From IMG/VR virus record IMGVR_UViG_3300022745_000020, positions 1-64,000 of that record: a stretch of 64,000 nt of DNA. The stretch is one strand, 5' to 3'. The position numbers and the translations under genes are program-made. Each line of letters opens with the position of its first letter. Within the stretch, counting starts at the first letter, position 1. Under the pieces are notes generated by a model that worked only from the letters and a program-made list of their open reading frames with translations, had not been told where the DNA came from and made no database searches. Of the stretch, positions 1,379 to 61,340 are shown piece by piece. The stretch comes from a virus.

Positions 1379-3397
1379 ATGCATCCTACTGAGAAGATCC
1401 TCAAGGAGCTCACAGCCGAGCTCAAGCGACTGTGTCACATGTATCACATCCTCGGAGTATCGCTCGTGCCCGATGATGTCTACGATGCTAAATACCTCAA
1501 GCTCCAGGAGCTCGAAGAGCGCTACCCCCAGTGGGCTCAGACAGACTCCCCCACTAAGAAAGTAGGCTCCTCGATGCAGGAGGGATCCAAGAGCATCCAG
1601 ATGTCCACACCGATGCTCAGCATCAAGACTCACACCGACTGTGAGAGCTCCAGCGCTGCGGCATTCGACGCCTACATCAAAGATCTGCTGCAAGTGACTG
1701 AGCCTGTAGAGTACTGCTGTGAGCTCAAGTACGATGGCATGAGTGTAAACTTACGCTATCGTCATGGACACTTCACCTCAGCTAACCTACGAGGTGATGG
1801 CTACATCGGGGAAGATGTCACAGCCAACATCGCCTCACTGACGAGTTTCCCAAAGACTCTGCTGTGGGAGAGTCCTGCTGAGCTCGTAGAGATCCGTGCA
1901 GAGTGTATCTTCCTCAAGCAAGATTTCGATGCACTCAACGAGCGTCAGCAGCAGCGCATCGACAAAGGTGTCAAAGGCATCAAACTCTATGCCAATGCCC
2001 GCAACGCAGTAGCTGGACTCATCCGTCGTAGTGACGATGCACTGCTGAGCTCAGCCAATCTACAGATCTTTGCTTACGCGCTAGGTGAGTGTGTGGGCTA
2101 CATACCACCTGCTAAGCAGTCTGAGTTACTCGACACGCTCGTTGCTTGGGGCTTTCGCCCCACCAATCGTCAAGTCGTCAGTGACCCCCTCATGCTCTGT
2201 AAGTGGCATGAGTTGGTCAACCAAAAACGAGACGATTTGGATTTCGAAATCGATGGCGTAGTATACAAGGTCAACGACCGATCACTGCAAGACACACTCG
2301 GCTACAACTCACGAGAGCCCAAGTGGGCGATCGCTCACAAGTTCGCTCCCGCTGAGAAGCTCACGCGTCTCAAAGAGATCGATCTGCAAGTGGGCCGCAC
2401 CGGGCGTATCACCCCAGTAGGTAAGATCGAACCCGTGGCTGTGGGTGGGGTCATCGTCTCCAGTGTGAATCTACACAACGAAGATGAGATCAGACGCACC
2501 AACCTAGCCATAGGTGACACAGTGGTGGTCAGACGAGCAGGTGACGTCATCCCCGAGATCATCGCCAGTGTCAAAGAAGATGAATCGCAGCCCAGTCAAT
2601 ACTCCATCTACGACAAGCTCAACGGAGTATGCCCCTCCTGCCAATCCCCTATCGTCAAAGTAGGGGCCGATTGGAGATGCACTGCGGGCATGGCCTGTCG
2701 GGCTCAACGTGTGGAGTCACTCATTCATTTTTGCTCCAGACGCATGATGGATATCCAAGGTATCGGCGATAAGATCGCAGAACTCCTAGTGAGTAAAGAT
2801 CTGGTTAAACGATCCAGCGATGTATTCTACCTCACTCAAGAATCCCTCATGAGTGCGGGTATCTCCCCTCTGGTGGCCTCTACCATCCTAGCATCTATCG
2901 ACAAAGCCAAGTCCACCACGTATGAGAACTTTTTGTACGCTCTAGGCATCCCCTCAGTAGGTGAGGAGACCGCTCAAGTCCTGGCTAATGCCTATCCTCA
3001 GCTCGATGCACTGATCTCCTGTAAGGAGAGTGACTTGTTGAATATCCCCGGTATAGGCCCTATCACCGCTAAGCTGGTGTGCGACTACTTCACTCAGGAT
3101 GAACACATCAAAAATATCATTCGGTGTCTAGATGCAGGAGTATCTTGGCTCAATACTTCCTTAACCGAAGGTGCACTCACCGGTAAGACATTCGTCACCA
3201 CAGGCACATTACCTACGATGACCAGAGACGTCTTCATCAAGACCGTCAAGCTCCATGGTGGTAAGGTCAGTGGTACAGTATCTAATAAGGTTGATTATCT
3301 CGTAGCAGGAGAGCATGCTGGGGATAAGCTCAATAAAGCCACAGCTCTAGGGATACCTGTACTGAGTGAAGATGAGTTTTTATCACTTTTTCACTAA
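1379..3397 (+). CDS. ligA: NAD-dependent DNA ligase
   Basis: It seals nicks in duplex DNA using NAD+ as AMP donor, probably during phage replication and repair. The protein (672 aa) is full length for the bacterial LigA family. In order it shows an N-terminal Ia-like region (DDVYDAKYLKLQELE), the adenylation motif KYDG with the nucleotide-accepting lysine at residue 117, the OB-fold region (VGRTGRITPVGKIEPV), a four-cysteine zinc finger (CPSC ... CTAGMAC), helix-hairpin-helix repeats (IPGIGPITAKLV) and a C-terminal BRCT domain (GKTFVTTGTLPTMTRD). The start at 1379 is preferred because the ATG at 1334 lies in a hairpin loop and adds 15 non-homologous residues; the AGG at 1367-1369 is a weak ribosome binding site. 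Assignment is secure. Confidence 0.95.
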   Translation: MHPTEKILKELTAELKRLCHMYHILGVSLVPDDVYDAKYLKLQELEERYPQWAQTDSPTKKVGSSMQEGSKSIQMSTPMLSIKTHTDCESSSAAAFDAYIKDLLQVTEPVEYCCELKYDGMSVNLRYRHGHFTSANLRGDGYIGEDVTANIASLTSFPKTLLWESPAELVEIRAECIFLKQDFDALNERQQQRIDKGVKGIKLYANARNAVAGLIRRSDDALLSSANLQIFAYALGECVGYIPPAKQSELLDTLVAWGFRPTNRQVVSDPLMLCKWHELVNQKRDDLDFEIDGVVYKVNDRSLQDTLGYNSREPKWAIAHKFAPAEKLTRLKEIDLQVGRTGRITPVGKIEPVAVGGVIVSSVNLHNEDEIRRTNLAIGDTVVVRRAGDVIPEIIASVKEDESQPSQYSIYDKLNGVCPSCQSPIVKVGADWRCTAGMACRAQRVESLIHFCSRRMMDIQGIGDKIAELLVSKDLVKRSSDVFYLTQESLMSAGISPLVASTILASIDKAKSTTYENFLYALGIPSVGEETAQVLANAYPQLDALISCKESDLLNIPGIGPITAKLVCDYFTQDEHIKNIIRCLDAGVSWLNTSLTEGALTGKTFVTTGTLPTMTRDVFIKTVKLHGGKVSGTVSNKVDYLVAGEHAGDKLNKATALGIPVLSEDEFLSLFH

Positions 3398-3754
3398 TAG
3401 TATGCGAGAGTGTAAGTGGTGTGAGCGTCGAGTCGTTATTTGACTCTGACTCACGAGGTCCAGACCCGCACACCCCATCTCGTGTCGTGCATTCCCGCTC
3501 AAGGATAGGGAACTCCTAGGCGACAGACGTCCCTCGTGACGCGCTCGCCCCCATACCCTTACCCTTCTTCACTTGAGCTGTGAGTGATACACGACTTCCC
3601 ATGCACTTAGCACCTATTTTGCTGATACATGGGTATAAGCCAAAGAAGTACCTGACGCACCGAGGGTTGATCCCTTTGGTGCGTCAGGTGGCTTATGCTG
3701 CCTCAAGATGAAAAGTTACCGAAATCTCCACTCTTATAGAAGAGGAACTCAGTC
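3398..3754. other. Structured non-coding gap after ligA
   Basis: No credible gene lies in these 357 bases. It contains several nested inverted repeats: gtgag/ctcac around gagtc/gactc (3421-3454), cacgag with ctcgtg (3453-3484), an outer ggtgtg/cacacc pair (3418-3474), and a long terminator-like hairpin at 3635-3696. The first part resembles a compact three-way junction. It could be a small RNA, a processed 3' UTR or only a set of terminators. Confidence 0.4.
3635..3696 (+). terminator. Long two-part hairpin
   Basis: The inner stem pairs 3651-3666 with 3672-3688 (cctgacgcacc with ggtgcgtcagg, one bulge). The outer stem pairs 3635-3641 (ataagcc) with 3690-3696 (ggcttat). No strong T run follows. 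Confidence 0.6.
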
Positions 3755-4087
3755 ATGTCAAACGAACAAAACCAGGTGATTCAGCTCGATGGCTATCTCG
3801 TCGATCGCATCATCGAGATGTATGACCATCCCAAATTTCACACTCAAGGAGTGTGTAATCACATCGACGAGTTACTCGATGCGGATATGTACACCGATCG
3901 AGAGAGTCATCAGCTCAAAGAAGTACTCGCTCAGATCAAAGAAAAGCAGCGCAGTGAATTTCAAGACTTGACTGCCGATGAGCTGCTGCTGCGATTACTG
4001 TCGCGTCAAGACAACATCGGCTGTTACTACAGCATCCGTCTGAATGTCCTGAAAGCCATCTACCCACGTGGTAAAGGAGTCTGGTGA
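3755..4087 (+). CDS. Hypothetical protein, 110 aa
   Basis: The ATG at 3755 is preceded by an AGAGGAAC ribosome binding site. The product is a soluble, highly charged, predicted mostly helical protein rich in Asp, Glu, His and Arg. There is no transmembrane segment, cysteine pattern or known motif. Its TGA (4085-4087) is immediately followed by the next start (4089), so the two are translationally coupled. Function unknown. Confidence 0.55.
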   Translation: MSNEQNQVIQLDGYLVDRIIEMYDHPKFHTQGVCNHIDELLDADMYTDRESHQLKEVLAQIKEKQRSEFQDLTADELLLRLLSRQDNIGCYYSIRLNVLKAIYPRGKGVW

Positions 4088-4088
4088 A

Positions 4089-4490
4089 ATGAATTTCTCA
4101 AACATCTTGACGTATTTCAAAGGCGCGACTTGCGCTCACATCACCAATGCTCTCGGATACGATCGAGTAGCAGTGTGCAAGGTCGAAAACAGTATTTTGG
4201 ATATTGACCTTTGCGTGTTGTCGGATCTGGCTCACGATATCGGGCTGCGTGTGGTCGTCGATACGAACGATCGCAATTCGATCATCTGTTTATGTGGGAG
4301 CCGAGAGCAGTTTCAAGCTCGACATGATTTCATGGAGCTCAGCCATGCCCTGAGGCTGCGTTATACGGACACGCAAGAGGAATTGCCATTATTCGACACC
4401 ACCGCCGAGAGTAATGAAGCGGTCCGGAAGATGAAGTTGGAATACATCAACCGCATCCAAAACTACATCCGAGAAAAGCATGTTCACTGA
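4089..4490 (+). CDS. Hypothetical protein upstream of thyA, 133 aa
   Basis: The start at 4089 is chosen because AAAGGAG lies about ten bases upstream, inside the end of the previous gene; an in-frame GTG at 4068 has no site. The N-terminal half (NILTYFKGATCAHITNALGY, then VCKVENSILDIDLCVLSDLA) has the look of a helix-turn-helix XRE-type fold, but I cannot identify it firmly. The C-terminal part is helical and charged. The gene overlaps the thyA fragment by 11 bases, so it was probably co-translated with the native thymidylate synthase. Confidence 0.5.
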   Translation: MNFSNILTYFKGATCAHITNALGYDRVAVCKVENSILDIDLCVLSDLAHDIGLRVVVDTNDRNSIICLCGSREQFQARHDFMELSHALRLRYTDTQEELPLFDTTAESNEAVRKMKLEYINRIQNYIREKHVH

Positions 4491-4851
4491 CCGAATCCGC
4501 CGTGATATCCTCACTTTTGCTGAGACCTACATCCCTCAGTCCAGTCAAAAGACCAATGAAATTGGATACCGTAATCTCTTGCGACGCATCTTGAGCGAAG
4601 GTGTGAATAAGGATGATCGCACAGGAACAGGTACTCGCTCCTTGCATGGTCAATCCATCACGTATGATTTGCGTGACTCCATCCCCTTGTTCACCAGCAA
4701 GAAAGTCCATGCCAAGACAGCCATCAATGAGATGCTGTGTTTCTTGAATGCGCAGACTCATCTGTCGGACTACCATGCCCGTAATGTCCATGTCTGGGAT
4801 AAGTTTGCAGACGAGACGGGTTCGAGTACTGAGATTTTGATGGTTCATTAA
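4480..4851 (+). pseudogene. thyA: Truncated native thymidylate synthase (N-terminal remnant)
   Basis: Residues 22-115 align with the N-terminal half of thymidylate synthase, including DDRTGTGTRSLHGQ (folate/phosphate arginine loop), PLFTSKKVHAKTAINEMLCF and HVWDKFADETGS. After Ser115 (codon about 4822-4824) homology stops and eight unrelated residues (STEILMVH) lead to a stop. The catalytic PCH cysteine, the dUMP-binding region and the C-terminus are missing, so it cannot be active. Base composition matches the flanking genes, unlike the complete copy that follows, so I read this as the phage's original thyA, broken at the edge of an insertion. Confidence 0.85.
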
Positions 4852-4865
4852 TAAGGGGATAAATA

Positions 4866-5819
4866 ATGACCACCGTTTTTCTACAAAATCAAGCGGATTC
4901 TGCATATGCCGGTCTGATAAACGAGGTTCTCTCAGAAGGGAGAATAAAAGCAGATCGTACAGGTACTGGGACAATATCCTATCACGGTTATACGGTTAGG
5001 TATAGTTGTAAGGAGGGGTTCCCGATCCTTACAACAAAGCAGGTTCTCTACAGATCGGCTATCGCTGAAATGATTTGTTTTATGCGGGGGTACACCAACG
5101 TAAAACAATTTAACCTTATGGGAACCAAAGTTTGGGATAAATTTGCTGATCCGGACACTGGGTCAATTGGGGATCTATATGGTCGTCAGTGGGTCAATTG
5201 GATCTGTAGTGGGGGGGAAGGTGGATCAATAAATCAGCTCAATGACCGATTAACAGAACTGAGAAACAACCCCTTCTCCAGGAGGTTGCTCATCAGCGCA
5301 TGGAATCCTCAATTCCTCCCTCCGGAAGACACCGATCCAACAGATAATCCAAAAAATGGATTATTCTCTTTGGCGCCCTGTCATCATGCTTTTCAGCTGA
5401 TCGCAAAGCCCGGTCAGAAAAATGACATAGGAAAGAATAATAGCCCTTATTTGAAAAGAGCCACTGATGAACATGGTCATTTCAAAGTACTGGACTTACA
5501 CCTCTCCATTAGAAGTAATGACCTATTCCTTGGGCACCCCTTCAATTGCGTAGGGTATTCCTTTTTACTGATGTGGATATCTGCGTGTTATGGATTCGTT
5601 CCCGGTGAATTGATTATTTCCATAGCGGATGCACACATCTACAAAGATCATCTTCCACAGATAGCTGAGCAGATGACAAAGTCATCTTTCACTGCACCGT
5701 TATCTCAGTTTAAAAATATCGACCCAACCCCTGAGAATTTTTTCTTGGTTGAACCAGATAACTTCGAGCTTTCGGATTATCAACATAATGCTTTTATCAA
5801 AGGTAACGTATCAAAGTAA
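4866..5819 (+). CDS. thyA: Thymidylate synthase (complete, acquired copy)
   Basis: It methylates dUMP to dTMP using methylene-tetrahydrofolate and releases dihydrofolate, which the DHFR encoded at 14452 can recycle. The 317-residue protein has all hallmarks: DRTGTGT (30-36), KVWDKFAD, DLYGRQWVNW (103-112), the arginine pair in NPFSRRLLISAWNP, catalytic Cys172 in LAPCHHAFQ, RSNDLFLGHPFN (216-227) and ADAHIYKDH. A stretch of about 30 residues between PCHHAFQ and LDLHLSIRS is longer than in E. coli ThyA. Start 4866 has AAGGGG upstream. It is AT-richer than the rest of the window and diverged from the remnant upstream (KVWDKFADPDTGS against HVWDKFADETGS), so it came from another phage. It restores the activity lost by truncation of the native gene. 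Confidence 0.95.
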   Translation: MTTVFLQNQADSAYAGLINEVLSEGRIKADRTGTGTISYHGYTVRYSCKEGFPILTTKQVLYRSAIAEMICFMRGYTNVKQFNLMGTKVWDKFADPDTGSIGDLYGRQWVNWICSGGEGGSINQLNDRLTELRNNPFSRRLLISAWNPQFLPPEDTDPTDNPKNGLFSLAPCHHAFQLIAKPGQKNDIGKNNSPYLKRATDEHGHFKVLDLHLSIRSNDLFLGHPFNCVGYSFLLMWISACYGFVPGELIISIADAHIYKDHLPQIAEQMTKSSFTAPLSQFKNIDPTPENFFLVEPDNFELSDYQHNAFIKGNVSK

Positions 5820-5838
5820 TGAACTTTGATCAACAGCC

Positions 5839-6933
5839 ATGAAGAAAGTCGACTTCTTAAAGAATTTATTTGATAAATTTCCTCAAAGGGAAACCCAGTA
5901 CGATTACAGTTTGATTCCAGAAGAGTTTTCTTCCTGGAAGTATAAGGTCCCTATTGTCTGTAAAGAACATGGGGTGTTTTATCAGAGGGCGGATGCTCAC
6001 CTAAAAGGGCAGATTTGTAAAGAGTGCCATTTAAAACGAACGAGGCTTACTACCGAAATGTTTGTTAACAATGCTAAAAAATGCCATGGTGAAAATAAGT
6101 ACAACTATGATAAAACTGTGTATTACGGAGACAATAAACTGGTTACAGTAACTTGCCCCGAACATGGGGATTTTACTCAATATGCAACTAACCATGTACG
6201 TGGCCATGGGTGTCCGGCCTGTGTTGGTCTGAAGCGCCATACTTTCCATGACTTTGAGAAAAGGGCCATGGAGCTGCATAAGGGAAAATATAAATATATC
6301 GATGAATTTACAGTTAGGCGACATAATAAGGTAGCGATAATCTGCCCGGATCATGGAACTTTCACTCAGGAGGTAGGTAAACACCTAACCGGGCAGGGTT
6401 GTCCGAAATGCTCTGCTTCTAAAATAGAGCGGAAAATCTATAGCCTATTGGATAGTTTTGAGGTAAGTTATGAGCCAGAGTTTGAAATCCCTTTGCACCC
6501 ATACAGGTATGATATTTTAATATCTGGATGCAATATACTTATTGAACTACATGGCCCTCAACATTACAGACCGGTCAGTTTGTTTAACGGGGAAGAGGGG
6601 TTTAGAAAAAGAATTCGCCTAGATTCAGAGAAGAGAAAATTGGCGACCGAGTCCGATTTTCACTTGATAGAGATTGATCTTCGCCCCTTTGAAAAAGGTA
6701 GGTATGAGGATGAGGATCTATATTCCTATTTTATAGCTGAAATCAAAAAGCACTTCCCTTACTGGTACAAAATAAACGGTAAAGTGAGGGCATATAGAAA
6801 TCTGCAAGAGACATATGATAATCTCAGAATTTTCAAGTGTAACATCCTAAAGTGTCGTGACGAAAAAGACATTCAAAAGGTTTTGGATGATGAGATTGCA
6901 TATATGTTTCCTGAGTCTAGTCGTGTGTTCTAA
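5839..6933 (+). CDS. Vsr-like (PD-(D/E)XK fold) homing endonuclease with zinc-binding repeats
   Basis: The 364-residue protein has three zinc-binding repeats of the form VxCxxHGxFxQ...H..G..CxxC (about 35-65, 105-133, 165-190), typical DNA-contact modules of phage homing endonucleases. A C-terminal nuclease domain follows: YRYDILI, IELHGPQHYRP, a downstream D..K...A run, then LIEIDLRPF. This pattern fits the Vsr-like EDxHD homing endonucleases, which are free-standing genes near conserved phage genes. It starts 19 bp after thyA and shares its low G+C. Its likely job is to cut thyA genes that lack this arrangement and spread itself with the linked thyA. The exact target site cannot be read from sequence. 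Confidence 0.75.
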   Translation: MKKVDFLKNLFDKFPQRETQYDYSLIPEEFSSWKYKVPIVCKEHGVFYQRADAHLKGQICKECHLKRTRLTTEMFVNNAKKCHGENKYNYDKTVYYGDNKLVTVTCPEHGDFTQYATNHVRGHGCPACVGLKRHTFHDFEKRAMELHKGKYKYIDEFTVRRHNKVAIICPDHGTFTQEVGKHLTGQGCPKCSASKIERKIYSLLDSFEVSYEPEFEIPLHPYRYDILISGCNILIELHGPQHYRPVSLFNGEEGFRKRIRLDSEKRKLATESDFHLIEIDLRPFEKGRYEDEDLYSYFIAEIKKHFPYWYKINGKVRAYRNLQETYDNLRIFKCNILKCRDEKDIQKVLDDEIAYMFPESSRVF

Positions 6934-6936
6934 TCG

Positions 6937-6987
6937 CCTATTAGTGGCTCTATGACCTCAGAAATTCAAATTCTACCAGTAGGTTAA
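6937..6987 (+). pseudogene. Possible C-terminal remnant of native thyA
   Basis: Just after the endonuclease stop a 16-codon open frame reads PISGSMTSEIQILPVG then TAA. Thymidylate synthases commonly end with an H-P-x-I-x-G/A-x-M-type tail, so this could be the last codons of the disrupted native gene and would mark the right edge of the insertion. The match is short and rests on pattern recognition only. Confidence 0.3.
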
Positions 6988-6989
6988 TC

Positions 6990-7082
6990 GTGTGCACCAA
7001 GCTCGACTCTAAGTCAGGTGTAGTCCTAGTCATGCTCATCAGTGCAGCGTGTTTTATAGGACTGATCTACCTACACACATAG
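6990..7082 (+). CDS. Possible 30-aa membrane peptide
   Basis: A GTG-started frame encodes a peptide with one hydrophobic helix (VVLVMLISAACFIGLIYL) flanked by a charged N-terminus (CTKLDSKS) and a short tail. A partial AGG lies seven bases upstream. A short hydrophobic frame can arise by chance, so this is tentative. If real it would be a small inner-membrane phage peptide of unknown role. Confidence 0.25.
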   Translation: MCTKLDSKSGVVLVMLISAACFIGLIYLHT

Positions 7083-7096
7083 GTCCATACAGCCCT

Positions 7097-7139
7097 CTAT
7101 AGGCCCTCTAAGCGCTCTAGACGCCATAGGGGCCTATAG
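7097..7139 (+). terminator. Hairpin between thyA region and next gene
   Basis: A 10-bp perfect stem (ctataggccc, 7097-7106, with gggcctatag, 7130-7139) closes a 23-nt loop that contains further partial repeats of ctctag/ccatag. It separates the acquired thyA unit from the gene at 7204. Confidence 0.4.
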
Positions 7140-7203
7140 GGGTATTATGCCCTATCTTCACGAACCCTCATTCAACAGACACACTCAACCAACATGGAAC
7201 ATT

Positions 7204-7545
7204 ATGTCTAACGAAATCTTCGTCTTTGGCTCCAATCTCGCAGGTCGACATGGGGCAGGTGCTGCTCTATACGCCAAAGAGCACTACAAGGCCAAGACAG
7301 GCGTGGGAGTAGGGCGCACTGGTAATGCCTACGCCATCCCCACCAAAGACGAGAAACTCCAAACGCTCACTCTGGAGCGCATCAACGAGTACGTCCAGGC
7401 TTTCCTGAAGTACGCTCGAGAAAACCCCCACCTGACGTTCAACGTCACTGCAGTGGGATGCGGTCGCGCCGGCTATGGCGACTCCCATATCTCACCGATG
7501 TTCAAGGGCGCCCCCAGTAACTGTAAACTGCCAGCAAACTGGTAA
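7204..7545 (+). CDS. Conserved phage protein, A1S_2505-like / macrodomain-like, 113 aa
   Basis: The ATG at 7204 starts the recognisable domain (MSNEIFVFGSNLAGRHGAG); an in-frame ATG at 7147 would add 19 unrelated residues. The protein belongs to a small family seen in many phages and some bacteria, with GSNLAGRHGAGAA near the N-terminus, AYAIPTKD, and VTAVGCGRAGYGDSHISPMF near the C-terminus. The Gly-rich N-terminal loop and the G-C-G-x-A-G-Y loop resemble the two ADP-ribose-binding loops of macrodomains, so a role in binding ADP-ribose or a related nucleotide is possible but unproven. It stands alone between a hairpin and nrdJ. Confidence 0.6.
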   Translation: MSNEIFVFGSNLAGRHGAGAALYAKEHYKAKTGVGVGRTGNAYAIPTKDEKLQTLTLERINEYVQAFLKYARENPHLTFNVTAVGCGRAGYGDSHISPMFKGAPSNCKLPANW

Positions 7546-7633
7546 ATAGAGATAAAGCTATCACACGTGGCAATCCCAATCGTCAGTAAGTGAAGTCGTC
7601 ACATAGTCACCAACAAACGCAGGAAACATTACA

Positions 7634-10600
7634 ATGAGTACCGAACAAACCATCACACTGCAACAACTGCTCGATCAAACCGCACAGATCTCTCAAGATG
7701 TCCTCATCGAGAAGTACTGCAAGGATGGTGAGACCACTGCCGATGAAGTCTATGCTCGAGTCGCCAAAGGACTGGCTCAAGCTGAGAAGCCGCAAGATCG
7801 CGACAAGTGGGAGAAAATCTTCTACCATCACTTGCAGAACTACGGAGTCGGTGCTGGTCGGATCATGTCCGCATGCGGCACTGACGTACAGGCTGCCCTA
7901 CTGAACTGTTTTTGTCAGGGTGTGGGTGATACGTTTGACCCCGTCGATGAAGATGGTCACCCCGGTATAATTCAAGCAGTCGCTCAAGCAGTCAAGACTA
8001 TGTCCAAGGGTGGTGGGGTCGGATATAACTTCACTAACATTCGCCCACGCAAATCGTTGGTCAAGGGAACCCTTTCCACCACATCCGGCGTTTGTAGCTT
8101 TATCGATATCTTCGATATCGCTGGAAAGACAGTAGAAAGTGCCGGAAACCGTCGGGGTGCGCAATTAGGTGCTCTGGATATTGACCACCCTGACATCTAT
8201 GAGTTTGTCCAAGCCAAGCGCGAGCCGGGTCGTTGGTCTGGGTTCAATGTGTCGGTGGCTTGTTCCGATGCCTTCATGCAAGCTGTGCAAGACGATGGTA
8301 TTTGGGAGCTTAAGCATAAGGCTCAACCTCACCCGAAATATCAAAAAGAATGCTATCAACGCGAAGATGGGCTATGGGTCTATCAGGTCGTAAAAGCAAG
8401 GGATCTGTTTGATACTATCACCAAATCCACATATGACTATGCCGAACCCGGCATTCTTTTCTTGGATAAAATCAATCGAGAAAATACAGTCTACTACTGT
8501 GAAGAAATCAAGACCACCAATCCATGCGTGACGGGAGATACTCGCCTACACACGCAATACGGGATGGTGCAGATCAAGAATCTTTACGATATTAAATGTG
8601 ATCTGATAGTCACTGTAGATAACCGCACTCTGGACTCTGAGGAGTTTGGGGTGACTACTCGTCCCGCCGTTCCAGCGTTCATGACGTCATCGAGAGCCGC
8701 AGTCTATAAAGTCACTTCCAAAGACGGGTACTTCGTGAAGGGTACCAATTGGCATGACTTCTATACTCAGCGCGGTAAGATTAAGCTCAAAGACCTGACC
8801 ATCTCCGATAGCTTCCTGGTCCAATCTGAGATGGGTCAATTTAATTCATTGCAAAATGAATCCCTGGTAACCGAGCTGATGAATCAGTACGGTGATCTGT
8901 CAGCCGGCGTGCCCGACGAAGCATTCTCCCTGTGCCAGGAAGATACCAAGACGTACATTCAGCACGTTTTTTCCATTAATGGGGACTTCAGATTTGATTT
9001 CCTGAATACGGGAGTTGTTCTGGTTTTCAAATGCACTGAAAAAGAGCATCTGCAATCCATTCAAATGCTGCTGGCAAACTTTGGAATCTTCAGCAGCATT
9101 GAGAAAACAAGTAGTGGGTATGAGCTTGAAATGCGGGGTTCTCAAGTAGGGCTCTACCTGGATCGAGTCGGGATGAATAATCCGGAAAATGAGGCGTATG
9201 CTCGTCGACGCTACGAAGAGGTAAACGATCCTCAGAAGTTCGACTACACGACTGAGATTGAATCTATTGAATTTATTGGGTATGAGGCCGTTTATGACAC
9301 CACCCAAGCTGATCACAATAGCGTGATCTTTAACGGAGTGGTTACGGGTCAATGCGGCGAGTTGCCCCTCCCCCCATACGGCTGTTGCGACCTCGGTCCA
9401 CTGATTCTCCCCCGTTTCGTGAAAGATCCTTTCACTGAAAACGCTACTTTCGATATGGATCGGTTTGTGCAGGCTGTCAAGACACAGGTTCGCATTCTGG
9501 ACAATGTACTTGATATCACGCTGTGGGCTTTGGATGAACAGCGTATCGAAGCTGCAAATAAGCGTCGCATCGGTGTAGGCTATACTGGCATTGGCGATGC
9601 AATGATTATGCTAGGTATCCGATATGACTCTGCCGGAGCTGTTTTGTTGGCTGGGAGTATTGCTAAACAGATGAATGAAGCCGCATTTGAAGCTTCGATT
9701 GATTTGGCTGTCGAGCGGGGGTCTTTCCCTCTGTTCGACGTAGATAAGTTTATGGCGGGGCCGTTCATTCAGCGTCTTCCTAAACATCTCCAAGACGCAA
9801 TTCGCGAGAAAGGCATTCGCCATTCGCATTTATTGTCAATTGCACCTACTGGAACAGTGTCTCTGGCATTCGCTGATAACGCCAGTAACGGAATCGAGCC
9901 TGCATTTAGCTGGGTGTATTCTCGTCGCAAGATAGGTCCCGATGGACAATTCCAGACCTATCAGGTCATGGACTATGCTTTCAAGACTTACATCAAGGAA
10001 GTATTATCCAAGCAAGAATCTGAAGAGTATTGCATTGGCTTTATTCAAGCCGTTTCTGAAGGTAAGAGTGAATATCTTGGTAAGAAGATCAAAGAGATTC
10101 TCCCAGATGCATTTGTAACAGCCTTAGAGATTGATGTAGATGCTCACCTGGCTATCTTGTTTGCCACTCAGCCGCATGTGTCCTCGGCCTTGAGCAAGTG
10201 TGTGGCCGAAGGTACTCGCATCATGACTAATCAAGGTCTTCTGAAAGTAGAAGAGCTTGGGGAGGCTGAAGATCCCGATACATTTGCAGAACCCATCGCT
10301 GATCTGAAGGTCATCTGTCCCGATGGTCAGTGGCGAAAGGTCACTAAGCACTATTACGGTGGAGTGCGACCCACCATTAAAATCCGCTTGGATAATGGGC
10401 AGGAAATTGAAGGTAGTGAAGTTCATAAACTCATGACCCCATATGGGTGGACTCCGATGAGTGAGCTCAATTACCATGACTATGTTTGCATTCGTCGCGA
10501 TGTGAGTATGGACTATCCAGGTGGAAAAGAGCTACCTGGTATCGACTTTGCAAGTCATGCAAAGGACTTCACCATCCCGGAGAAGATGTCTGCGGAACTA

Positions 10601-12322
10601 GCGATGTTTCTCGGTATGATCTGTGCAGATGGGCATCTGCAAGAGAAGGCAGGTCTAGTGTCCTTAACGAAGAATGACCAATCAGTAGGAGCTCTCTTTG
10701 CAGACCTTTGCAAGACGCTGTTTAATGCCGAAATTAAGCACCGTATAGATCCCAGGAACGGTGTGCATTATTGGCAATTTACATCCAGGGCAGTGGTTCG
10801 TTGGATCAAAAATCTGATCGGATACCGCTCTGCTGACAAGCATGCCCCTGAGGCGGTGATGTCGGGATCTCCAGACGAAATGCGCGCTTTCTTGGCAGGT
10901 GTTAGCTTGGATGGATACCGGGCAAACTTCCTGTCCGGTGGTAGTTCAGCCACTGTAATTTACATGGGGCGGTCCAAAGAGCTTGCCGGCAATTGCTTCT
11001 CGTTGCTCAACGCTTTGGGGTATGCCCCACGAGGGATGACCAAGCGTGTAAATGGTTATGACTACCTCGTATATGGGGTCATGTGCTATGGGTTTGAGGG
11101 TTGTTTGCAAGACCACAAGAATACCCAGCACGTGCAGCCGAATGAGTTAATTAAACTACCCTTCGGTGTTAACCGGGGTATGTTCTCTGCATATAGTCAG
11201 GGTTATAAATATATGTGCAATATTGAAGTTCGCAATCAACCTGTGAGCAGAGAGCAATCCGTGAGAAAGTATCTCACGGGAGAAGACTCCCCTCAAGAGC
11301 CGTTTATTTACCGCAAGATTACCTCAATTGAGCGTTGTCAAGCTCACGTGTACGACATTGAGGTGGAGGAAAGTCACGACTATCTTATCGATGGCGTGGT
11401 CTCCCATAACACCGTCAATTGCCCTGAGGATTATCCTTTCGAAGACTTTCAGGATATTTACATGAAGGCCTGGAAGGGTGGTCTCAAAGGTGTCTCCACT
11501 TATCGCCCCAACCCAGTGCGACCCGGTATCCTCACTGCCCCAGTGGAGAAGAAAGAAGAAGTAACTCCTCCAAAGCAGGATGTGGTGGTTGAGATTCTAT
11601 CTTCGCTTGATGATGTCGACCCACGCACTCTAGAGCTCAATAAGCTCCCTTACCAGGATCTCCCAGCCATCAAGATCAAGACAGAGATGCTGGTGAACTA
11701 TGTTTCCCACAATCTGCACCTGATCGTATCCTTTGCACGCGTATCGGGTATCCATCGAGGGCAGCCTGTGAGCATCTATCGACCTGTGGAGTTCTTCATT
11801 CCTCAGTCTCAGCTCGATGGTGCTCCTCAGTGGGTGACTGCTTCCATGCGCATGTTATCTTTGATGGCCCGTGGTGGTGCTCAATTTGCCAAAGCGCTCA
11901 GTGATATGCGCAACATCACCTGGGCTGGAGGTCAAGTCCAGTGTGGTAAGACCATCACTGCAGATGGTAAATCTAAGCCCATCTTCCACAGCAGTGACAC
12001 TGCAGCCATCGCCTGGATCATCCAAGATCTGCTGATTCGCAATGGTTATCTGGGCGAGGATGGCGCTATGCTCAGCGTGGATGAGCTGATGGTCAATCAG
12101 GCCAGTCGTCGCCCCTATGAGCCTCTACAGTACGCCGATATCCCTGCAGTGCGTGTGCCTCAAACAGTCCAAAAGGTGACTGAGTCCGTCACTGAAAAGA
12201 AAGATGTACCGAAGGCTTTGGTCAATGGCAAAAAGTGCCCTGAATGCCACAGCATGACTCTGGTCAAGCGAGATGGCTGTGAGAAGTGTGATACCTGCGG
12301 CTACACGGGTAGCTGCGGCTAA
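7634..12322 (+). CDS. nrdJ: Adenosylcobalamin-dependent (class II) ribonucleotide reductase with two inteins
   Basis: It reduces ribonucleotides to deoxyribonucleotides using an adenosylcobalamin-generated thiyl radical and needs no separate beta subunit. The 1562-residue precursor becomes about 882 residues after removal of inteins at residues 298-573 and 856-1259. The extein shows LLNCFCQGV (redox cysteine region), GGGVGYNFTNIRPR, NRRGAQLGALDIDHPDI, the active-site motif NP|CGE split by intein 1, PLPPYGCCDLG, SIAPTGTVSLAFADNASNGIEP, SALSK|TVNCPED split by intein 2, and GLKGVSTYRPN. The C-terminus has a TSCPD-like domain and a terminal zinc ribbon (CPEC ... CEKCDTCGYTGSCG) typical of NrdJ. 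It is the main source of dNTPs in this region and works upstream of Dcd, ThyA and FolA. Start 7634 has AGGAAAC upstream. B12 must come from the host. Confidence 0.93.
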   Translation: MSTEQTITLQQLLDQTAQISQDVLIEKYCKDGETTADEVYARVAKGLAQAEKPQDRDKWEKIFYHHLQNYGVGAGRIMSACGTDVQAALLNCFCQGVGDTFDPVDEDGHPGIIQAVAQAVKTMSKGGGVGYNFTNIRPRKSLVKGTLSTTSGVCSFIDIFDIAGKTVESAGNRRGAQLGALDIDHPDIYEFVQAKREPGRWSGFNVSVACSDAFMQAVQDDGIWELKHKAQPHPKYQKECYQREDGLWVYQVVKARDLFDTITKSTYDYAEPGILFLDKINRENTVYYCEEIKTTNPCVTGDTRLHTQYGMVQIKNLYDIKCDLIVTVDNRTLDSEEFGVTTRPAVPAFMTSSRAAVYKVTSKDGYFVKGTNWHDFYTQRGKIKLKDLTISDSFLVQSEMGQFNSLQNESLVTELMNQYGDLSAGVPDEAFSLCQEDTKTYIQHVFSINGDFRFDFLNTGVVLVFKCTEKEHLQSIQMLLANFGIFSSIEKTSSGYELEMRGSQVGLYLDRVGMNNPENEAYARRRYEEVNDPQKFDYTTEIESIEFIGYEAVYDTTQADHNSVIFNGVVTGQCGELPLPPYGCCDLGPLILPRFVKDPFTENATFDMDRFVQAVKTQVRILDNVLDITLWALDEQRIEAANKRRIGVGYTGIGDAMIMLGIRYDSAGAVLLAGSIAKQMNEAAFEASIDLAVERGSFPLFDVDKFMAGPFIQRLPKHLQDAIREKGIRHSHLLSIAPTGTVSLAFADNASNGIEPAFSWVYSRRKIGPDGQFQTYQVMDYAFKTYIKEVLSKQESEEYCIGFIQAVSEGKSEYLGKKIKEILPDAFVTALEIDVDAHLAILFATQPHVSSALSKCVAEGTRIMTNQGLLKVEELGEAEDPDTFAEPIADLKVICPDGQWRKVTKHYYGGVRPTIKIRLDNGQEIEGSEVHKLMTPYGWTPMSELNYHDYVCIRRDVSMDYPGGKELPGIDFASHAKDFTIPEKMSAELAMFLGMICADGHLQEKAGLVSLTKNDQSVGALFADLCKTLFNAEIKHRIDPRNGVHYWQFTSRAVVRWIKNLIGYRSADKHAPEAVMSGSPDEMRAFLAGVSLDGYRANFLSGGSSATVIYMGRSKELAGNCFSLLNALGYAPRGMTKRVNGYDYLVYGVMCYGFEGCLQDHKNTQHVQPNELIKLPFGVNRGMFSAYSQGYKYMCNIEVRNQPVSREQSVRKYLTGEDSPQEPFIYRKITSIERCQAHVYDIEVEESHDYLIDGVVSHNTVNCPEDYPFEDFQDIYMKAWKGGLKGVSTYRPNPVRPGILTAPVEKKEEVTPPKQDVVVEILSSLDDVDPRTLELNKLPYQDLPAIKIKTEMLVNYVSHNLHLIVSFARVSGIHRGQPVSIYRPVEFFIPQSQLDGAPQWVTASMRMLSLMARGGAQFAKALSDMRNITWAGGQVQCGKTITADGKSKPIFHSSDTAAIAWIIQDLLIRNGYLGEDGAMLSVDELMVNQASRRPYEPLQYADIPAVRVPQTVQKVTESVTEKKDVPKALVNGKKCPECHSMTLVKRDGCEKCDTCGYTGSCG
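8525..9352 (+). mobile_element. Intein 1 in NrdJ (276 aa, degenerate endonuclease)
   Basis: The insertion starts with Cys (CVTGDTRLHTQYG, block A) directly after TTNP and ends VYDTTQADHNSVIFNGVVTGQ (block F/G) before CGELPLPPYG. The +1 residue is therefore the catalytic NPC cysteine itself. A block-B-like GTNWHDF is present. The middle keeps traces of a LAGLIDADG endonuclease (YIQHVFSINGDFRFD; LLANFGIFSSI) without two intact dodecapeptides, so the nuclease is probably dead. The C-terminal splice residues are Gly-Gln, not the usual His-Asn. Confidence 0.85.
10199..11410 (+). mobile_element. Intein 2 in NrdJ (404 aa, LAGLIDADG endonuclease)
   Basis: It begins CVAEGTRIMTNQGLLKVEEL (block A) after SALSK and ends VYDIEVEESHDYLIDGVVSHN before TVNCPED, with canonical His-Asn and +1 Thr. 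A block-B-like SEVHKLMT lies after GQEIEG. Two dodecapeptides, FLGMICADGH (near precursor residue 990) and FLAGVSLDGY (near 1085), with an acidic residue in each, indicate a LAGLIDADG homing endonuclease that may still be active. Confidence 0.9.
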
Positions 12323-50526: not shown

Positions 50527-53500
50527 ATGCTCTCACTCACCACTATCAAGAAACTCAATCCGGTCGTAGCAGGCACAGCTGTGCCTGCTGGCACGACCGT
50601 CCCATCGGCTCAAATCTCTGATGCCACCACCGTTGGTAAAGCTCTGATCGTCGCGGCTGATACTGCTACGGCACGTACTACGCTAGAACTGGGCAGCGCT
50701 GCCCAGTCTAGTACCACGTCTTTTGATCCGGCAGGCACCTCCACATCGGTGATGTTCAGCCACACGGCGGCTGCTGACCCCCACGGGCAGTATTTGACCC
50801 AAGCTCGTGCAAACTTGCTGTACAACCCGCTGGGCTCATCTGGCACTGTGACAGCCAGCAGCATCACCGATGCTTCGTCTTTTGGCCGAGATCTGCTGAC
50901 TGCCACTTCTGTGGCTATACAGCGCACCAAGCTGGGCCTGGGCAGTGCTGCGCTGGCTGCCACTACCGATTTCGTGCCGGTGGCCACGGGCACTACCTTG
51001 GCTAATGCCGATATCGCCTCAGGTGTGCTCACGGGTAACAACCTCGTGCTCACCAAGGTCGGTGGTGGCACCATCACCATCGATGTGACCGCAGCAGTAG
51101 CCGATCTGCGAGTGACCAGTGGGGTGTATAACGCTGCTACGAAGGCGCTGGATTTCACGCTGTCTGATTCATCCAAGATCAGTGTGCCAGTGTCGGCTTT
51201 GTTGCCAGTGACGGTGGGTAACTCCATCACTGGAGATGGTGCTACCACGCCTTTGTCGGTGGCTTACTCTGCCGATAGTGGCAATACCGCCAAAGCAGGT
51301 ACCGATGGGAAGATCTTTGCATCGCCCACCAACCTGAGTGCGACGCCCAGTGCCACCACACTGACGCTGACCAGCTCTACGGGCTCTTCTGCCACGTTGC
51401 CATTGGCCACGGGCACCAATTCTGGTCTACTGGCTCCTGCTGATTTTACTAAGATCTCCGGTCTGCCCGCCACGACATCCGCGGCTGGCGCTAACCTAAT
51501 CACTCAGGCTACGACTACCTTGCAGCGCACTGCTCTGGGCCTGGGTAGTGCAGCTACACTCAATGCCACCACCCTGGTGCAGACTGTCAACTCCCGCACC
51601 CCAGATGGATCGGGTGATGTCAACACCCGTACGTTTACTTCTGGATCGGTCGGTGCTACTGCAGTGGTGATTGATCTGTCGCTCTATCTGCTCGTAGGTG
51701 CACCTCACACACTCAGTGTGACACCCGATGCAGGATGCTCTATCCAAGTCGAATCCAGCACGAACGGTGGCACTACGTACACCACGTATGCCACAGCCAC
51801 GAGCATGGCCGCATACCAGTACATGCTCCAGCCTGGTGAGACTGCAGTCACCCATATCCGACTGACTCGCACAGTGGGTACGTCCACTGCGAGCGTCTAC
51901 TCGGTCAGTGCAGGTTTGGACTTTGCACAATACCCAGCCGGTACGGTGGCTAACACTGTATCGTCCAATAGCATCACCGATGCCTCTCAGCTGGGTAAGG
52001 ATCTGATCACTGCAGCTACTGAAGCAGTAGGTCGCACCAAGTTGGGCTTGGGTACTGCTTCTACGCTGAACGCCACCTCCATCGTCCAGACGGTGAATTC
52101 ACTCACCCCGGATGTCAATGGCAATGTCGTCACTCGCACCTGGGAGACCAACAAGGTCGGCGCCAGTGCAGTGCTGATCAACTTGAATAACATCTTGCTG
52201 TTGGGAGCTCCTCACACTCTGGTGGTGTCTCCCGATACGGGATGTACGATCTTGATCGAATCCAGTACCGACAATGGTACTACCTACAGCACGATCGATA
52301 CGATCACGATCGAAAATTCCTATCGATATTCTGTACAGCCTGGTGAGAACCCTGTCACCCATATCCGCATCACTCGCACGGTAGGCACCAGTGTCAATAG
52401 CCTATACTACATCAGTGGAGGTGTGGACTATGCCCAGTATCCGTCTGGCACCATCGTCTCCTCTGGCGGTACTGGTAACCTGTCTGCCAGTACCAACTTC
52501 ACTCAAACCACCATCAACAATGCCACTGCAGCGGGCACTGCACTGTTGACCGCTACTGACCTGGCTGCACAAAAGACACTGTTGGGTATCACAGGTGGTA
52601 CGGGTCTGTCCGCAGGCACTAATCTGACTCAGGCTGTCGTCACCGCCACGACTGCCATCGGTGCAGATATCCTCCAGAACGCGACAGCTGTCGGCCAAAC
52701 TCTGGTGAAGTCAGCCACCGCTCAGGCTGCACTTAACACCATCGCAGGAGCAGTCACAGCTGCCAGATTCCTGCGCGGTGATGGCACTAACGTCACTCTG
52801 TCGGCTATCCAAGCCTCTGATGTACCGACTTTGAACCAGAGTACGACAGGCTCGGCTGCGACGCTGACGACTGCTCGCACCATCTCCGCCACAGGCGATG
52901 CCACTGGCTCTACCACATTCGACGGCAGTGCCAACGTCTCCATGGCACTGACTCTGGCTAACACCGCTGTCACTGCTGGATCGTACACCGCAGCGACCAT
53001 CACTGTCGATGGTAAGGGTCGCGTCACCGCGGCCTCATCTGGCTCCTATGCCAGTGCTGCACAAGGTACGTTGGCGGGCACAGCGTTACAGCCGGGCACC
53101 AACCTCACTCAGGCCGTAGTGACTGGCACCAGCTCCATCGGTGCAGACATCCTGCAAAATGCGACAGCCGTTGGTCAGACCATCGTCAAGTCCGCTACCG
53201 CTCAAGCTGCACTTAACACCATCGCTGGTGCGGTGACTGCAGGTCAATATCCCCGTGGCAATGGCACCAACGTGGTGATGTCTGCCATCCAAGCCGCAGA
53301 TGTCCCTACGCTTAATCAGAATACGACTGGTTCTGCCGCGAGCCTCACCACTGCTCGTAATATCTCAGCGACTGGTGATGGTAGCTGGACAGTGTCTTTC
53401 AACGGTAGTGCTGACGCTACCGCAGCTCTGACTTTGGCTACGACTGGCATCACCGCTGGCACTTATGCCGCACCCACTCTCACCTTGGATACCAAGGGTC

Positions 53501-54900
53501 GAGTCACTGGGGTCACAGCTCAGACCTATGTAAAGACCATCAACTCCACTGCGCCTGATGGTGCCGGTAACGTCGCGCTGACACAAGCGGCCTCTGGTGC
53601 TATCGGAGCTTCCGCTGTAGTCATCGCAGTAGCTACTTATAATCTCTCAGGTCAACCCCACGTTCTGACGATCACGCCCGATACGGGATGTACGATCACT
53701 GTAGAGTACAGCACCAACAGTGGCACGACTTATACGACTTACTCCACCATCACCAGCTATGCACGGTATCAGTATACGGTGCAGCCTAATGAGACAGCGG
53801 TCACGCATATTCGACTGACTCGCACAGTGGGTAGCTCCACAGCTTCGACTTACTCGTTAGCAGGGGGGGCTGCCGTAGCTCAGTATCCGGCTAATGCCAA
53901 CGTCTATCTGAAGGCCAGTGCCACTGTGCCTCAAACTGTCATCGATAACACCACCTCCATCGGTGCGGCTGTGATGCAAGCCACCACCGCTGCAGCAGCT
54001 CAAAGTGCGATCGGGCTGGGCTCTACACTGAGCACGACCACCTATATATTGGGTCAAAATAGTTTTGGTACTGTTGGGATTACTACAACTGCATCACTGT
54101 CTCTACCTGCTTATATCACCACCAACGGAGGCTACATCTACGTGGATGGTTGTGGCGGAGGCGGTGCGGGTGGAGGTGGGTCTACCGATTCAGGTGGCGG
54201 TGGCGGCGGTGGGTCACGCGGTGTCAGCATGGTGCCTATTTATATACCTGCGGGAATTTCTACTGTAGCTATCCAAGTAGGTGCGGGTGGCGCAGGGGGT
54301 ACTGGTGGCAGTGCAGGAGCTGGTACAGCTGGTACAGCTGGAACAGAAACCTATATCAAACTCACCAATAGCTCAGGGCCCTATTGTGCCCGTTTTGGTG
54401 GGGGTATCGGTGGTAGTGGTGGGTCATCCACTGCAGGCACTGGCGGTGCAGGTGCCACCAGTGCATCTCAGTTATTCGTAGGGGGTTCTGCCGGTACAGG
54501 TGCAGGTAACGGCGGTGCCGGTAACCCGATTGCGGGAGCTTTTAGCAGTGGTGATAACGTCGTCTCTGGTCGCACGCTCACTGGAGGTGGTGGTGGGGGT
54601 GGAGCGGGTGCTACAGCCACTACAGGTGGAGGTATCGGGGGATACTCGGTATCTCAGAACGGTGCAGGTGGCGCCGGTGCCGGCGCAGGCGGCGGTGGCG
54701 GTGCGGGCCCTTGGGGGCGCAGCAGCAACCTTCCATTTATAGGTTATATGGGTACTGCCGGTGCAGGTGGTGCCGGTGGCGCTTCCCCCACAGTTGGCGC
54801 CTCAGCAACCACCGACACTTTCGGTGGCGGTGGTGGTGGGGGTGGTAAGACCATGGCCGGCGGTAATGGTGGTGACGGTTTCCTTCGCATCCTGTTTTAA
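50527..54900 (+). CDS. Long tail fibre with C-terminal glycine-rich adhesin domain, 1457 aa
   Basis: An AAGAGGAT site precedes the ATG. Ala/Thr/Ser-rich shaft repeats dominate: LGLGSAAxLxATxxV units, three copies of a module of about 130 residues (QTVNS.TPD.(S/N)GDV ... TVTHIRLTRTVGTS..S.Y), near residues 355, 515 and 1000, and two copies of TSIGADILQNATAVGQT(L/I)VK ... TTGSAA(T/S)LTTAR. After about residue 1180 the protein switches to a polyglycine-rich domain (NGGYIYVDGCGGGGAGGGG to GGNGGDGFLRILF). Such Gly-rich tips match the polyglycine-II adhesins of T4-like gp38 type in style. Likely a trimeric receptor-binding fibre. Five other genes repeat the C-terminal domain. Confidence 0.75.
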   Translation: MLSLTTIKKLNPVVAGTAVPAGTTVPSAQISDATTVGKALIVAADTATARTTLELGSAAQSSTTSFDPAGTSTSVMFSHTAAADPHGQYLTQARANLLYNPLGSSGTVTASSITDASSFGRDLLTATSVAIQRTKLGLGSAALAATTDFVPVATGTTLANADIASGVLTGNNLVLTKVGGGTITIDVTAAVADLRVTSGVYNAATKALDFTLSDSSKISVPVSALLPVTVGNSITGDGATTPLSVAYSADSGNTAKAGTDGKIFASPTNLSATPSATTLTLTSSTGSSATLPLATGTNSGLLAPADFTKISGLPATTSAAGANLITQATTTLQRTALGLGSAATLNATTLVQTVNSRTPDGSGDVNTRTFTSGSVGATAVVIDLSLYLLVGAPHTLSVTPDAGCSIQVESSTNGGTTYTTYATATSMAAYQYMLQPGETAVTHIRLTRTVGTSTASVYSVSAGLDFAQYPAGTVANTVSSNSITDASQLGKDLITAATEAVGRTKLGLGTASTLNATSIVQTVNSLTPDVNGNVVTRTWETNKVGASAVLINLNNILLLGAPHTLVVSPDTGCTILIESSTDNGTTYSTIDTITIENSYRYSVQPGENPVTHIRITRTVGTSVNSLYYISGGVDYAQYPSGTIVSSGGTGNLSASTNFTQTTINNATAAGTALLTATDLAAQKTLLGITGGTGLSAGTNLTQAVVTATTAIGADILQNATAVGQTLVKSATAQAALNTIAGAVTAARFLRGDGTNVTLSAIQASDVPTLNQSTTGSAATLTTARTISATGDATGSTTFDGSANVSMALTLANTAVTAGSYTAATITVDGKGRVTAASSGSYASAAQGTLAGTALQPGTNLTQAVVTGTSSIGADILQNATAVGQTIVKSATAQAALNTIAGAVTAGQYPRGNGTNVVMSAIQAADVPTLNQNTTGSAASLTTARNISATGDGSWTVSFNGSADATAALTLATTGITAGTYAAPTLTLDTKGRVTGVTAQTYVKTINSTAPDGAGNVALTQAASGAIGASAVVIAVATYNLSGQPHVLTITPDTGCTITVEYSTNSGTTYTTYSTITSYARYQYTVQPNETAVTHIRLTRTVGSSTASTYSLAGGAAVAQYPANANVYLKASATVPQTVIDNTTSIGAAVMQATTAAAAQSAIGLGSTLSTTTYILGQNSFGTVGITTTASLSLPAYITTNGGYIYVDGCGGGGAGGGGSTDSGGGGGGGSRGVSMVPIYIPAGISTVAIQVGAGGAGGTGGSAGAGTAGTAGTETYIKLTNSSGPYCARFGGGIGGSGGSSTAGTGGAGATSASQLFVGGSAGTGAGNGGAGNPIAGAFSSGDNVVSGRTLTGGGGGGGAGATATTGGGIGGYSVSQNGAGGAGAGAGGGGGAGPWGRSSNLPFIGYMGTAGAGGAGGASPTVGASATTDTFGGGGGGGGKTMAGGNGGDGFLRILF
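54115..54151 (+). repeat. 37-nt exact repeat, copy 1 (adhesin start)
   Basis: The 37 bases encoding the start of the Gly-rich domain (TTNGGYIYVDG) are identical to 59275-59311 in another fibre gene, including synonymous positions. This points to recent exchange between the paralogues. Confidence 0.7.
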
Positions 54901-54903
54901 ATC

Positions 54904-55824
54904 ATGGACAGACTACCTATTTTATCAGGTATGGTCTCTACCCGCTACGTTCTTGGTGTGACCAGTGGAACTACAGCGGGTGCTACTTTGCAGACCCAAT
55001 TGATACTACCTAGCTACTTTAGTGTATCGGGTGGTTATGTGTTAGTCACTGCCTCGGCTGGAGGTGGTGGGGGCTCAGGGGGATCCACCGATACTGGTGG
55101 AGGAGGCGGAGGTGGGGGTGAGGGATGTAACTATATGAGCGTTTACGTCCCAGCAGGCACCGCCAGTTTATATATCCAAGTCGGTAAGGGTGGGGCCTCC
55201 AGCGCCGGTAACTCTGCTGGTAACAGCATCGATGCCTCTCCTGGGGATGATACTTTTATCAGACTCAGCGATTATACTACTGGACCTTATATACTAAAGT
55301 TACGCGGTGGTCGCCCTGGTGGGGCAGCCACTGCGGGCGCTTCAGGTGGGAAAGGTGGCGATGCGGGAGGGTTATACGTTGTCCCAGAGCAGGTTTATTC
55401 AGGGGGAGGCGCTGGTACTACTGACTCTGGTGGTGCTGCCGGCGGTAACCTGCGCGAATTCTATATGAAAGGGTTTTTGCCCGGTGGCGGCGGAGGTGGG
55501 GGTTGCGGTACCGCCGGTGCATCCGGAGGTAATGGTAACGGTGCTACTGGTAACGGTGGTGGTGGGGGATCCGGTGCGGGCGCGGGGGGGGGGGGGGGGG
55601 GTAGTTTCTATTACAACGCCCCATGTATATCCTGTACCGCCAGCGGAGGTAATGGTCCAACAGGTGGTGCTGGTGGAGTCTCCCCCACTGCAGGCACAAA
55701 AGATGCAAATGCTCTTGGTGGAGGTGGAGGTGGTGGAGGAAAAGGTATGTCTGGAGCCTATGGCAACGACGGCTTTCTCATCATCGCCTATCCCGCTGGT
55801 TATCCAATTCAACAACCAATTTAA
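54904..55824 (+). CDS. Glycine-rich adhesin paralogue 2, 306 aa (contains poly-G tract)
   Basis: It starts three bases after the long fibre stop. A short N-terminal strand region (SVSGGYVLVTASAGGGGGSG) leads into the same Gly-rich domain as the fibre tip: STDTGGGGGGGGEG, YVPAGTASLYIQVGKGG, TFIRLSDY, then GGGGGGKGMSGAYGNDGFLI at the end. It lacks the N-terminal attachment module found in 55828, 58750, 60059 and 62384, so it may be a separate tip subunit that caps a fibre. An 18-G homopolymer at 55584-55601 lies in its coding sequence. Gain or loss of one base would change the C-terminus, so the gene could be phase variable. Confidence 0.65.
   Translation: MDRLPILSGMVSTRYVLGVTSGTTAGATLQTQLILPSYFSVSGGYVLVTASAGGGGGSGGSTDTGGGGGGGGEGCNYMSVYVPAGTASLYIQVGKGGASSAGNSAGNSIDASPGDDTFIRLSDYTTGPYILKLRGGRPGGAATAGASGGKGGDAGGLYVVPEQVYSGGGAGTTDSGGAAGGNLREFYMKGFLPGGGGGGGCGTAGASGGNGNGATGNGGGGGSGAGAGGGGGGSFYYNAPCISCTASGGNGPTGGAGGVSPTAGTKDANALGGGGGGGGKGMSGAYGNDGFLIIAYPAGYPIQQPI
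55584..55601 (+). repeat. 18-base poly-G tract inside adhesin gene
   Basis: An uninterrupted run of 18 G encodes the end of an Ala codon and a run of Gly. In the window's frame the ORF continues as SFYYNAP. With one G fewer it would read into a frame that stays open to 55933, and with two fewer it would stop at TAG at once. The tract may be a slippage site or an assembly-sensitive region. Confidence 0.8.
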
Positions 55825-55827
55825 ACC

Positions 55828-56295: not shown

Positions 56296-56298
56296 GAT

Positions 56299-56595: not shown

Positions 56596-56600
56596 AGCAT

Positions 56601-58642: not shown

Positions 58643-58652
58643 CATAAGCAGC

Positions 58653-58685
58653 AGAGCTACTGGGGGCAAAGCCCCCAGTAGCTCT
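58653..58685 (+). terminator. Rho-independent terminator
   Basis: A 15-bp perfect stem (agagctactgggggc/gcccccagtagctct) with a 3-nt loop; cttttg follows. Confidence 0.8.
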
Positions 58686-58749
58686 CGCATCTTTTGACGA
58701 CTATACTTTTTCATACCGTTTGACTCCCTATTTCTAGAAAGGTAGATAC

Positions 58750-61339: not shown

Positions 61340-61340
61340 T

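Follow-up and report, generated by a model that had tools for sequence, protein, structure and literature searches.

A truncated native thyA followed by a foreign thymidylate synthase gene and a Vsr-fold nuclease gene in a phiKZ-like phage: a plausible variant of homing

Introduction

In the intronless homing of T-even phages, the gene of a free-standing nuclease adjoins a resistant allele of its target and enters the recipient with it by co-conversion (SegF with gene 56, SegG with gene 32 and SegE with uvsW), and marker exclusion results from this process (PMC2988022). Homing nuclease genes may also split phage genes by transposition-like insertion, as in the mobE/nrdA locus of Aeh1 and the mobA/gene 60 locus of T4 (PMC2988022). 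In yeasts, WHO elements consist of a nuclease gene and a piece of the target gene that confers resistance. At FBA1 the 3' part of the gene is carried by the element and fragments of the old gene are left, while in K. lactis a WHO12 pseudogene has a full-length CAO gene on one side and a damaged one on the other (PMC7282813). In co-infections by phiKZ-like phages, an intron-encoded homing nuclease serves as a weapon of one phage against the other (PMC12908238).

In this study, we analysed a locus at which a 5' fragment of a native thyA (hereafter the stump) is followed by a complete, divergent thyA (thyA2) and by the gene of a predicted Vsr-fold endonuclease (hef). It was found in IMG/VR record IMGVR_UViG_3300022745_000020, which is 147,902 bp long; the window, i.e. 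the whole stretch of DNA that was analysed, comprises its first 64 kb.

Results

Portal and terminase proteins group the record with phiKZ-like giant phages, the closest match of the terminase being Burkholderia phage FLC9 (46%). The complete phiKZ-like relatives found are ~220-320 kb long, and therefore the record is probably incomplete. At the DNA level, no relative of the window was present among 50,697 phage records, from which near-identical ones may have been excluded, and single-protein queries of viral contigs with the stump, ligase, portal, ThyA2 and nuclease yielded no close relatives. The features of the locus are as follows:

4480..4851, + strand: 5' fragment of the native thyA (stump), 123 codons; PF00303 positions 3-89 of 266, E=4.7e-25; native codon usage
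4830..6988, + strand: foreign block with thyA2 and the nuclease gene, delimited by Markov change-point analysis (orders 1-3)
4853..4859, + strand: ribosome binding site of thyA2, AAGGGGA, 6 nt ahead of the ATG, as read from the sequence
4866..5819, + strand: thyA2, complete divergent thymidylate synthase, 317 aa; PF00303 positions 2-265 of 266, E=3.3e-72
5839..6933, + strand: hef, 364 aa, free-standing endonuclease of the EDxHD/Vsr fold; three treble-clef zinc repeats, invariant EDxHD residues
6934..6989, + strand: short spacer, earlier read as the native thyA tail; not ThyA-like, lying in the foreign block and reaching its right border
6990..7082, + strand: candidate ORF of a small native membrane peptide, GTG start, 30 aa, as it appears from the letters

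Native thyA stump

The stump retains the first third of thyA. Its start codon overlaps the stop codon of the upstream gene, so the native operon position has been retained, and its codon usage lies at the median (fraction below 0.53) in comparison with the 109 other ORFs of the record; it is the native, resident gene. The homology to ThyA stops at 4824, and the stretch of the stump closest to thyA2 DNA is the last 30 nt of this homology (4795-4824, 77%). The resident gene has lost all sequence past about codon 117. This agrees with a reading made previously from the sequence only (the sequence-only reading), in which a truncated native thyA with ~115 codons kept and homology to about 4824 had been proposed.

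The same reading described the homology as ending abruptly. The end at 4824 stands, but it coincides with a natural insert site: other phiKZ-like ThyA proteins have 12 to about 200 residues inserted in frame between, or just behind, the motifs at W80 and Y94 (numbered as in E. coli). Since these inserts sit where the similarity of the stump ends, the breakpoint is fixed only within about 10 codons, and a variable loop of the ThyA family would, judging by the compared proteins, account for part of the abruptness.

Some of the inserts have features of their own. The thyA of L102 (positions 1396-3183; phiKZ-like record G020) is interrupted in frame by a large insert, located between two conserved motifs, which contains an I-HmuI-type NUMOD domain (PF22083, E=3.7e-8), and the ThyA inserts of L096 and L097 resemble segments of AP2/HNH homing nucleases, with no Pfam call. 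All three may be domesticated homing-nuclease remains within a working enzyme. The NUMOD domain in the L102 insert suggests that homing nucleases have struck this thyA stretch before, which modestly favours a role for the nuclease in the locus described here. Homing nuclease genes also neighbour thyA in Arthrobacter phage Dynamite (L139 1908-2983), in which two NUMOD4/HNH nuclease genes are located directly 5' of thyA.

The second half of the native thyA was not found anywhere in the 148-kb contig, and neither a full-sensitivity six-frame HMM search nor a Pfam search across the entire record revealed a third ThyA piece. A 16-codon frame directly after the nuclease gene (6937-6987) had been proposed as the tail of the native gene, together with a check for its alignment with the ThyA C-terminus. 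This was done with a position matrix built from 176 distinct ThyA C-termini and compared with the stop-terminated peptides of the window. The peptide scored -48 (the worst genuine ThyA tail, -19) and ranked 1301st among the 2238 stop-terminated 16-mers of the window, its last 9 residues ranking 1020th of 3221. With a score like that of random ORF ends, a composition that places it within the foreign block and a silent six-frame HMM search, this frame was rejected as a native 3' tail.

Complete foreign thyA2

ThyA2 has all the conserved catalytic residues (C172, R31, E68, R139, R140, R216, S217, D219, N227, H257 and Y259) and its gene is preceded by a strong ribosome binding site, which upholds the earlier description of a complete divergent thyA with its own ribosome binding site. 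It is the only complete thymidylate synthase gene in the contig, in which no thyX was found. Full-length identity to any other sequence compared does not exceed about 38%; this holds for bacterial relatives (best 38%, none close) and for 80 relatives in viral contigs among the matches listed (all ≤38% identical). The C-terminus of ThyA2 (...IKGNVSK) ends with K, whereas the final residue of ThyA is nearly universally V or I.

Vsr-fold nuclease

The nuclease gene, which has no clear ribosome binding site, is an ORF of its own outside any intron or intein. Its product contains three treble-clef zinc repeats (C41..C63, C106..C128 and C169..C191) with the nuclease domain behind them, and E197, D225, E236, H242 and D262 are invariant across 38 nuclease sequences. 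An AlphaFold model computed from these 38 sequences had a mean pLDDT of 82.7, with values >90 over most of the domain. In a Foldseek search of the PDB with the full-length chain as the query, the top matches, with modest E-values, were 3r3p (the I-Bth0305I catalytic domain; probability 1.00, E 0.012) and then Vsr (1cw0/1vsr), while the only sequence match to the PDB was a weak one to AbaSI. The model thus supports assignment of the protein to the homing-endonuclease fold class, with predicted cleavage activity, and the endonuclease placed after thyA2 in the sequence-only reading is indeed Vsr-like.

Relatives of this nuclease are labelled HNH or homing endonucleases in PHROGs and in other phages sit between core genes (e.g. 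terminase and portal, or recombination and polymerase subunits). The family is present in 2 and absent from 27 of 29 phiKZ-like records, and hef is its sole member in the contig; given this rarity among phiKZ-like phages, the gene was probably acquired.

Foreign block and its borders

The compositional borders of the block were located at about 4830-4834 (left) and about 6975-6988 (right), with 4834-6988 as the best segment, so that no more than about 10 nt separate the left edge from the point at which homology to ThyA stops. The codon usage of thyA2 is below that of all 109 other ORFs and that of the nuclease gene below 99% of them; GC3 values are 0.42 and 0.40, respectively (average 0.59). 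An AT-rich foreign block, as proposed before, is thereby corroborated: thyA2 and hef rank no higher than the first percentile among about 110 native ORFs, and the stump lies at the median. Moreover, thyA2 and the nuclease gene each fit the codon table of the other better than the native model. Their shared atypical codon usage and the single compositional block indicate that both most likely entered as one piece, which sustains the view of a broken native thyA followed by a single foreign cassette.

Neither border repeats, terminal inverted repeats nor a target-site duplication were found at the block borders, and no transposase is encoded among the block genes; a transposable element or insertion sequence was therefore rejected. 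An intron remnant was rejected as well, since no credible Rfam intron was detected at 3500-8500. A weak, sub-threshold match to a plastid group II intron domain (window 4333-4383, E=0.17) is most likely due to chance. Since the searches revealed no relative in which thyA is both intact and syntenic, the borders are defined solely by composition and homology. Read from the sequence, the ORF at 6990..7082 may be the first native feature to the right of the block.

Further downstream, an nrdJ-like gene for the large subunit of ribonucleotide reductase (window 7634-12322) contains two inteins (Intein_splicing and LAGLIDADG_3 hits). The region 50527-62273 of the window encodes a series of glycine-rich, repeat-rich tail-type proteins, among which one C-terminal domain occurs in several near-copies (50527, 54904, 56601, 58750, 60059 and 61341) and glycosidase-like ORFs are interspersed (57461; L003 1-798).

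Occurrence of the arrangement in other genomes

Among 48 phiKZ-like records, 25 have thyA, in a single copy each time, and the collection of phages as a whole contains 3741 thyA places in 3715 records, which means that second copies are rare. A nuclease of this family was found within 4 kb of none of the 80 thyA2 relatives among the matches listed. Similarly, at none of the 87 nuclease loci among the matches listed did the nuclease adjoin thyA, one locus having a thyA end 3.3 kb away. This suggests that the pairing of thyA2 with the nuclease is rare elsewhere. A comparison with relatives carrying an intact single thyA had been recommended; none that is syntenic was found, and two copies were seen in none of the 25 phiKZ-like relatives. 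The nearest record by NrdJ (G035, 51% identical; L134 8911-10278) carries an intein-free nrdJ and, a few kilobases upstream, thyX instead of thyA. An empty site cannot therefore be shown by this record, and the presence of thyX in place of thyA implies that synthase types are exchanged among phiKZ-like phages.

Discussion

Comparison with described homing systems

The locus resembles the intronless homing systems of T-even phages (SegF/gene 56, SegG/gene 32, SegE/uvsW and MobE/nrdB) in having a free-standing predicted nuclease, not associated with an intron, beside a gene of DNA metabolism. Those systems involve alleles of related phages, flanking homology and no stump, whereas here a complete, deeply diverged gene stands behind a 5' stump; allelic replacement that leaves no stump is thus not what is observed. 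With the WHO elements of Torulaspora and Lachancea, which encode an HO-like nuclease, it shares a nuclease gene immediately 3' of one form of the host gene and remaining pieces of the old gene. It differs from them in that (i) WHO elements replace only the 3' end, yielding a chimeric gene, while here a whole ThyA2 is supplied and the stump is separate, (ii) they leave 3' fragments downstream of the nuclease, while here the 5' end stays upstream and no 3' fragment was found, and (iii) their nuclease is intein-derived, while the nuclease described here is of the EDxHD type. Because the allelic feature of intronless homing and two WHO features are lacking, we regard the locus as a likely variant, and not a member, of these systems.

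The nuclease is similar to I-Bth0305I and other EDxHD (Vsr-like) homing endonucleases in its catalytic fold, residues and predicted multidomain DNA-binding extensions. In contrast to I-Bth0305I, which is intron-encoded, it is free-standing and has treble-clef zinc repeats. As in the Aeh1 mobE/nrdA and T4 mobA/gene 60 loci, a homing-type nuclease is found at an interrupted core gene of nucleotide or DNA metabolism, but in those split genes both halves are kept and reassemble, whereas the present locus lacks the 3' half and contains a second, complete gene. I-TevI, the homing nuclease of the T4 td group I intron, has a phage thymidylate synthase gene as its target, yet it is intron-encoded and no intron is present here; the td intron site also differs from the break site of the stump.

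The sequence-only reading considered it unusual for a free-standing nuclease to travel together with a full replacement for the gene that it targets. This is only partly so, since SegF/56, SegG/32 and SegE/uvsW (PMC2988022) and the WHO elements (PMC7282813) provide precedents; what remains odd, and constitutes the peculiarity of the locus, is the leftover 5' fragment beside a complete, deeply diverged copy.

Origin of the arrangement

The explanation that we favour, with middling confidence, is that a foreign cassette of thyA2 and an EDxHD nuclease gene replaced the 3' two thirds of the native thyA by a nuclease-promoted, non-allelic route. During co-infection with another phage, the nuclease of the latter would have cleaved the resident thyA at about codons 115-125, and the 3' arm of the broken gene would have been lost. 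Repair would then have linked the 5' stump to donor sequence just 5' of thyA2, creating a non-homologous left junction, with native sequence resuming past the old gene at about 6985, and the donor thyA2 would have restored thymidylate synthase. We infer the nuclease as the cutter, the cut position, the resistance of thyA2 and the identity of the donor, all four.

The replacement itself is supported by the native codon usage of the stump and by that of thyA2 and hef, which is the lowest or near-lowest of about 110 ORFs. A role of the nuclease is suggested by its best solved structural match, the homing endonuclease I-Bth0305I, by the position of phage homing nucleases of this class next to core genes, and by a break between the W80 and Y94 motifs, where other phiKZ-like ThyA proteins bear inserts. 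The 77% similarity of 4795-4824 to thyA2 DNA also counts in favour of the explanation. Against the explanation, ordinary homing, i.e. an allele swap via flanking homology, predicts a chimeric gene, in contrast to the stump and complete gene seen here; the homology gap coincides with a naturally variable ThyA loop; and the contig holds no 3' remnant of the native thyA, while the gene pair is unmatched among the listed loci.

The main rival is ordinary mosaicism, in which illegitimate recombination would have put a foreign segment, made up of thyA2 and a chance neighbouring nuclease gene, into the native thyA, the nuclease being a passenger and the segment being retained by selection because thyA2 is functional. 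This is tenable, though rather unlikely: the borders show no homology or repeats that would indicate homing, the thyA2-nuclease pair is not recurrent (0/80, and 0/87 adjacent, among the matches listed) and phage homing nucleases generally mark the edges of exchanged DNA (PMC10448857), but the sole nuclease of its family in the contig lies in this same small block, and the break falls in a thyA stretch that bears other homing-nuclease insertions.

Two further scenarios, a later deletion and an assembly fault, have a lower probability than mosaicism. In the former case, the native thyA would still have been intact when the thyA2-nuclease pair landed 3' of it, and a separate, independent deletion would later have removed the 3' part of the now redundant copy. 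Redundancy permits such decay, and a single genome does not reveal in which order the events took place; nevertheless, this two-step course is improbable, as the deletion would have to stop right before the ribosome binding site of thyA2 and two thyA copies are exceptional (0/25 phiKZ-like thyA records; 3741 places in 3715 phage records). A chimera arising from metagenome assembly or a strain mixture could be suspected because the arrangement is known from a single contig; with native-type genes flanking both sides and a continuous operon, it would require two separate false joins and is very hard to credit. Finally, a tandem duplication of thyA within the phage followed by truncation of one copy is scarcely conceivable, since a weak grouping of stump and thyA2 in a tree of N-terminal parts (84% SH-aLRT, not starred), which are too short for placing either of them, is opposed by a path length of 2.2 changes per site, an identity of 42.6% over 94 residues that rules out a recent duplication, and opposite codon usage.

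A more far-reaching form of nuclease-promoted replacement would be a self-contained phage cleave-and-rescue element, in which an EDxHD nuclease and a recoded complete thyA move as a unit between distant phages, destroy the resident thyA and supply an uncuttable copy, with no need of in-gene homology. We consider this doubtful, and it is plausible that the locus represents a variant of homing and not a new category.

Conclusions

If the nuclease cuts the old thyA and spares thyA2, the locus would be a phage counterpart of WHO elements in yeasts and of engineered cleave-and-rescue gene drives, the rescue being a whole gene. In that case, the swapping of giant-phage housekeeping genes for unrelated versions would be accounted for, and homing would extend from the exchange of close alleles to the replacement of deeply diverged genes.
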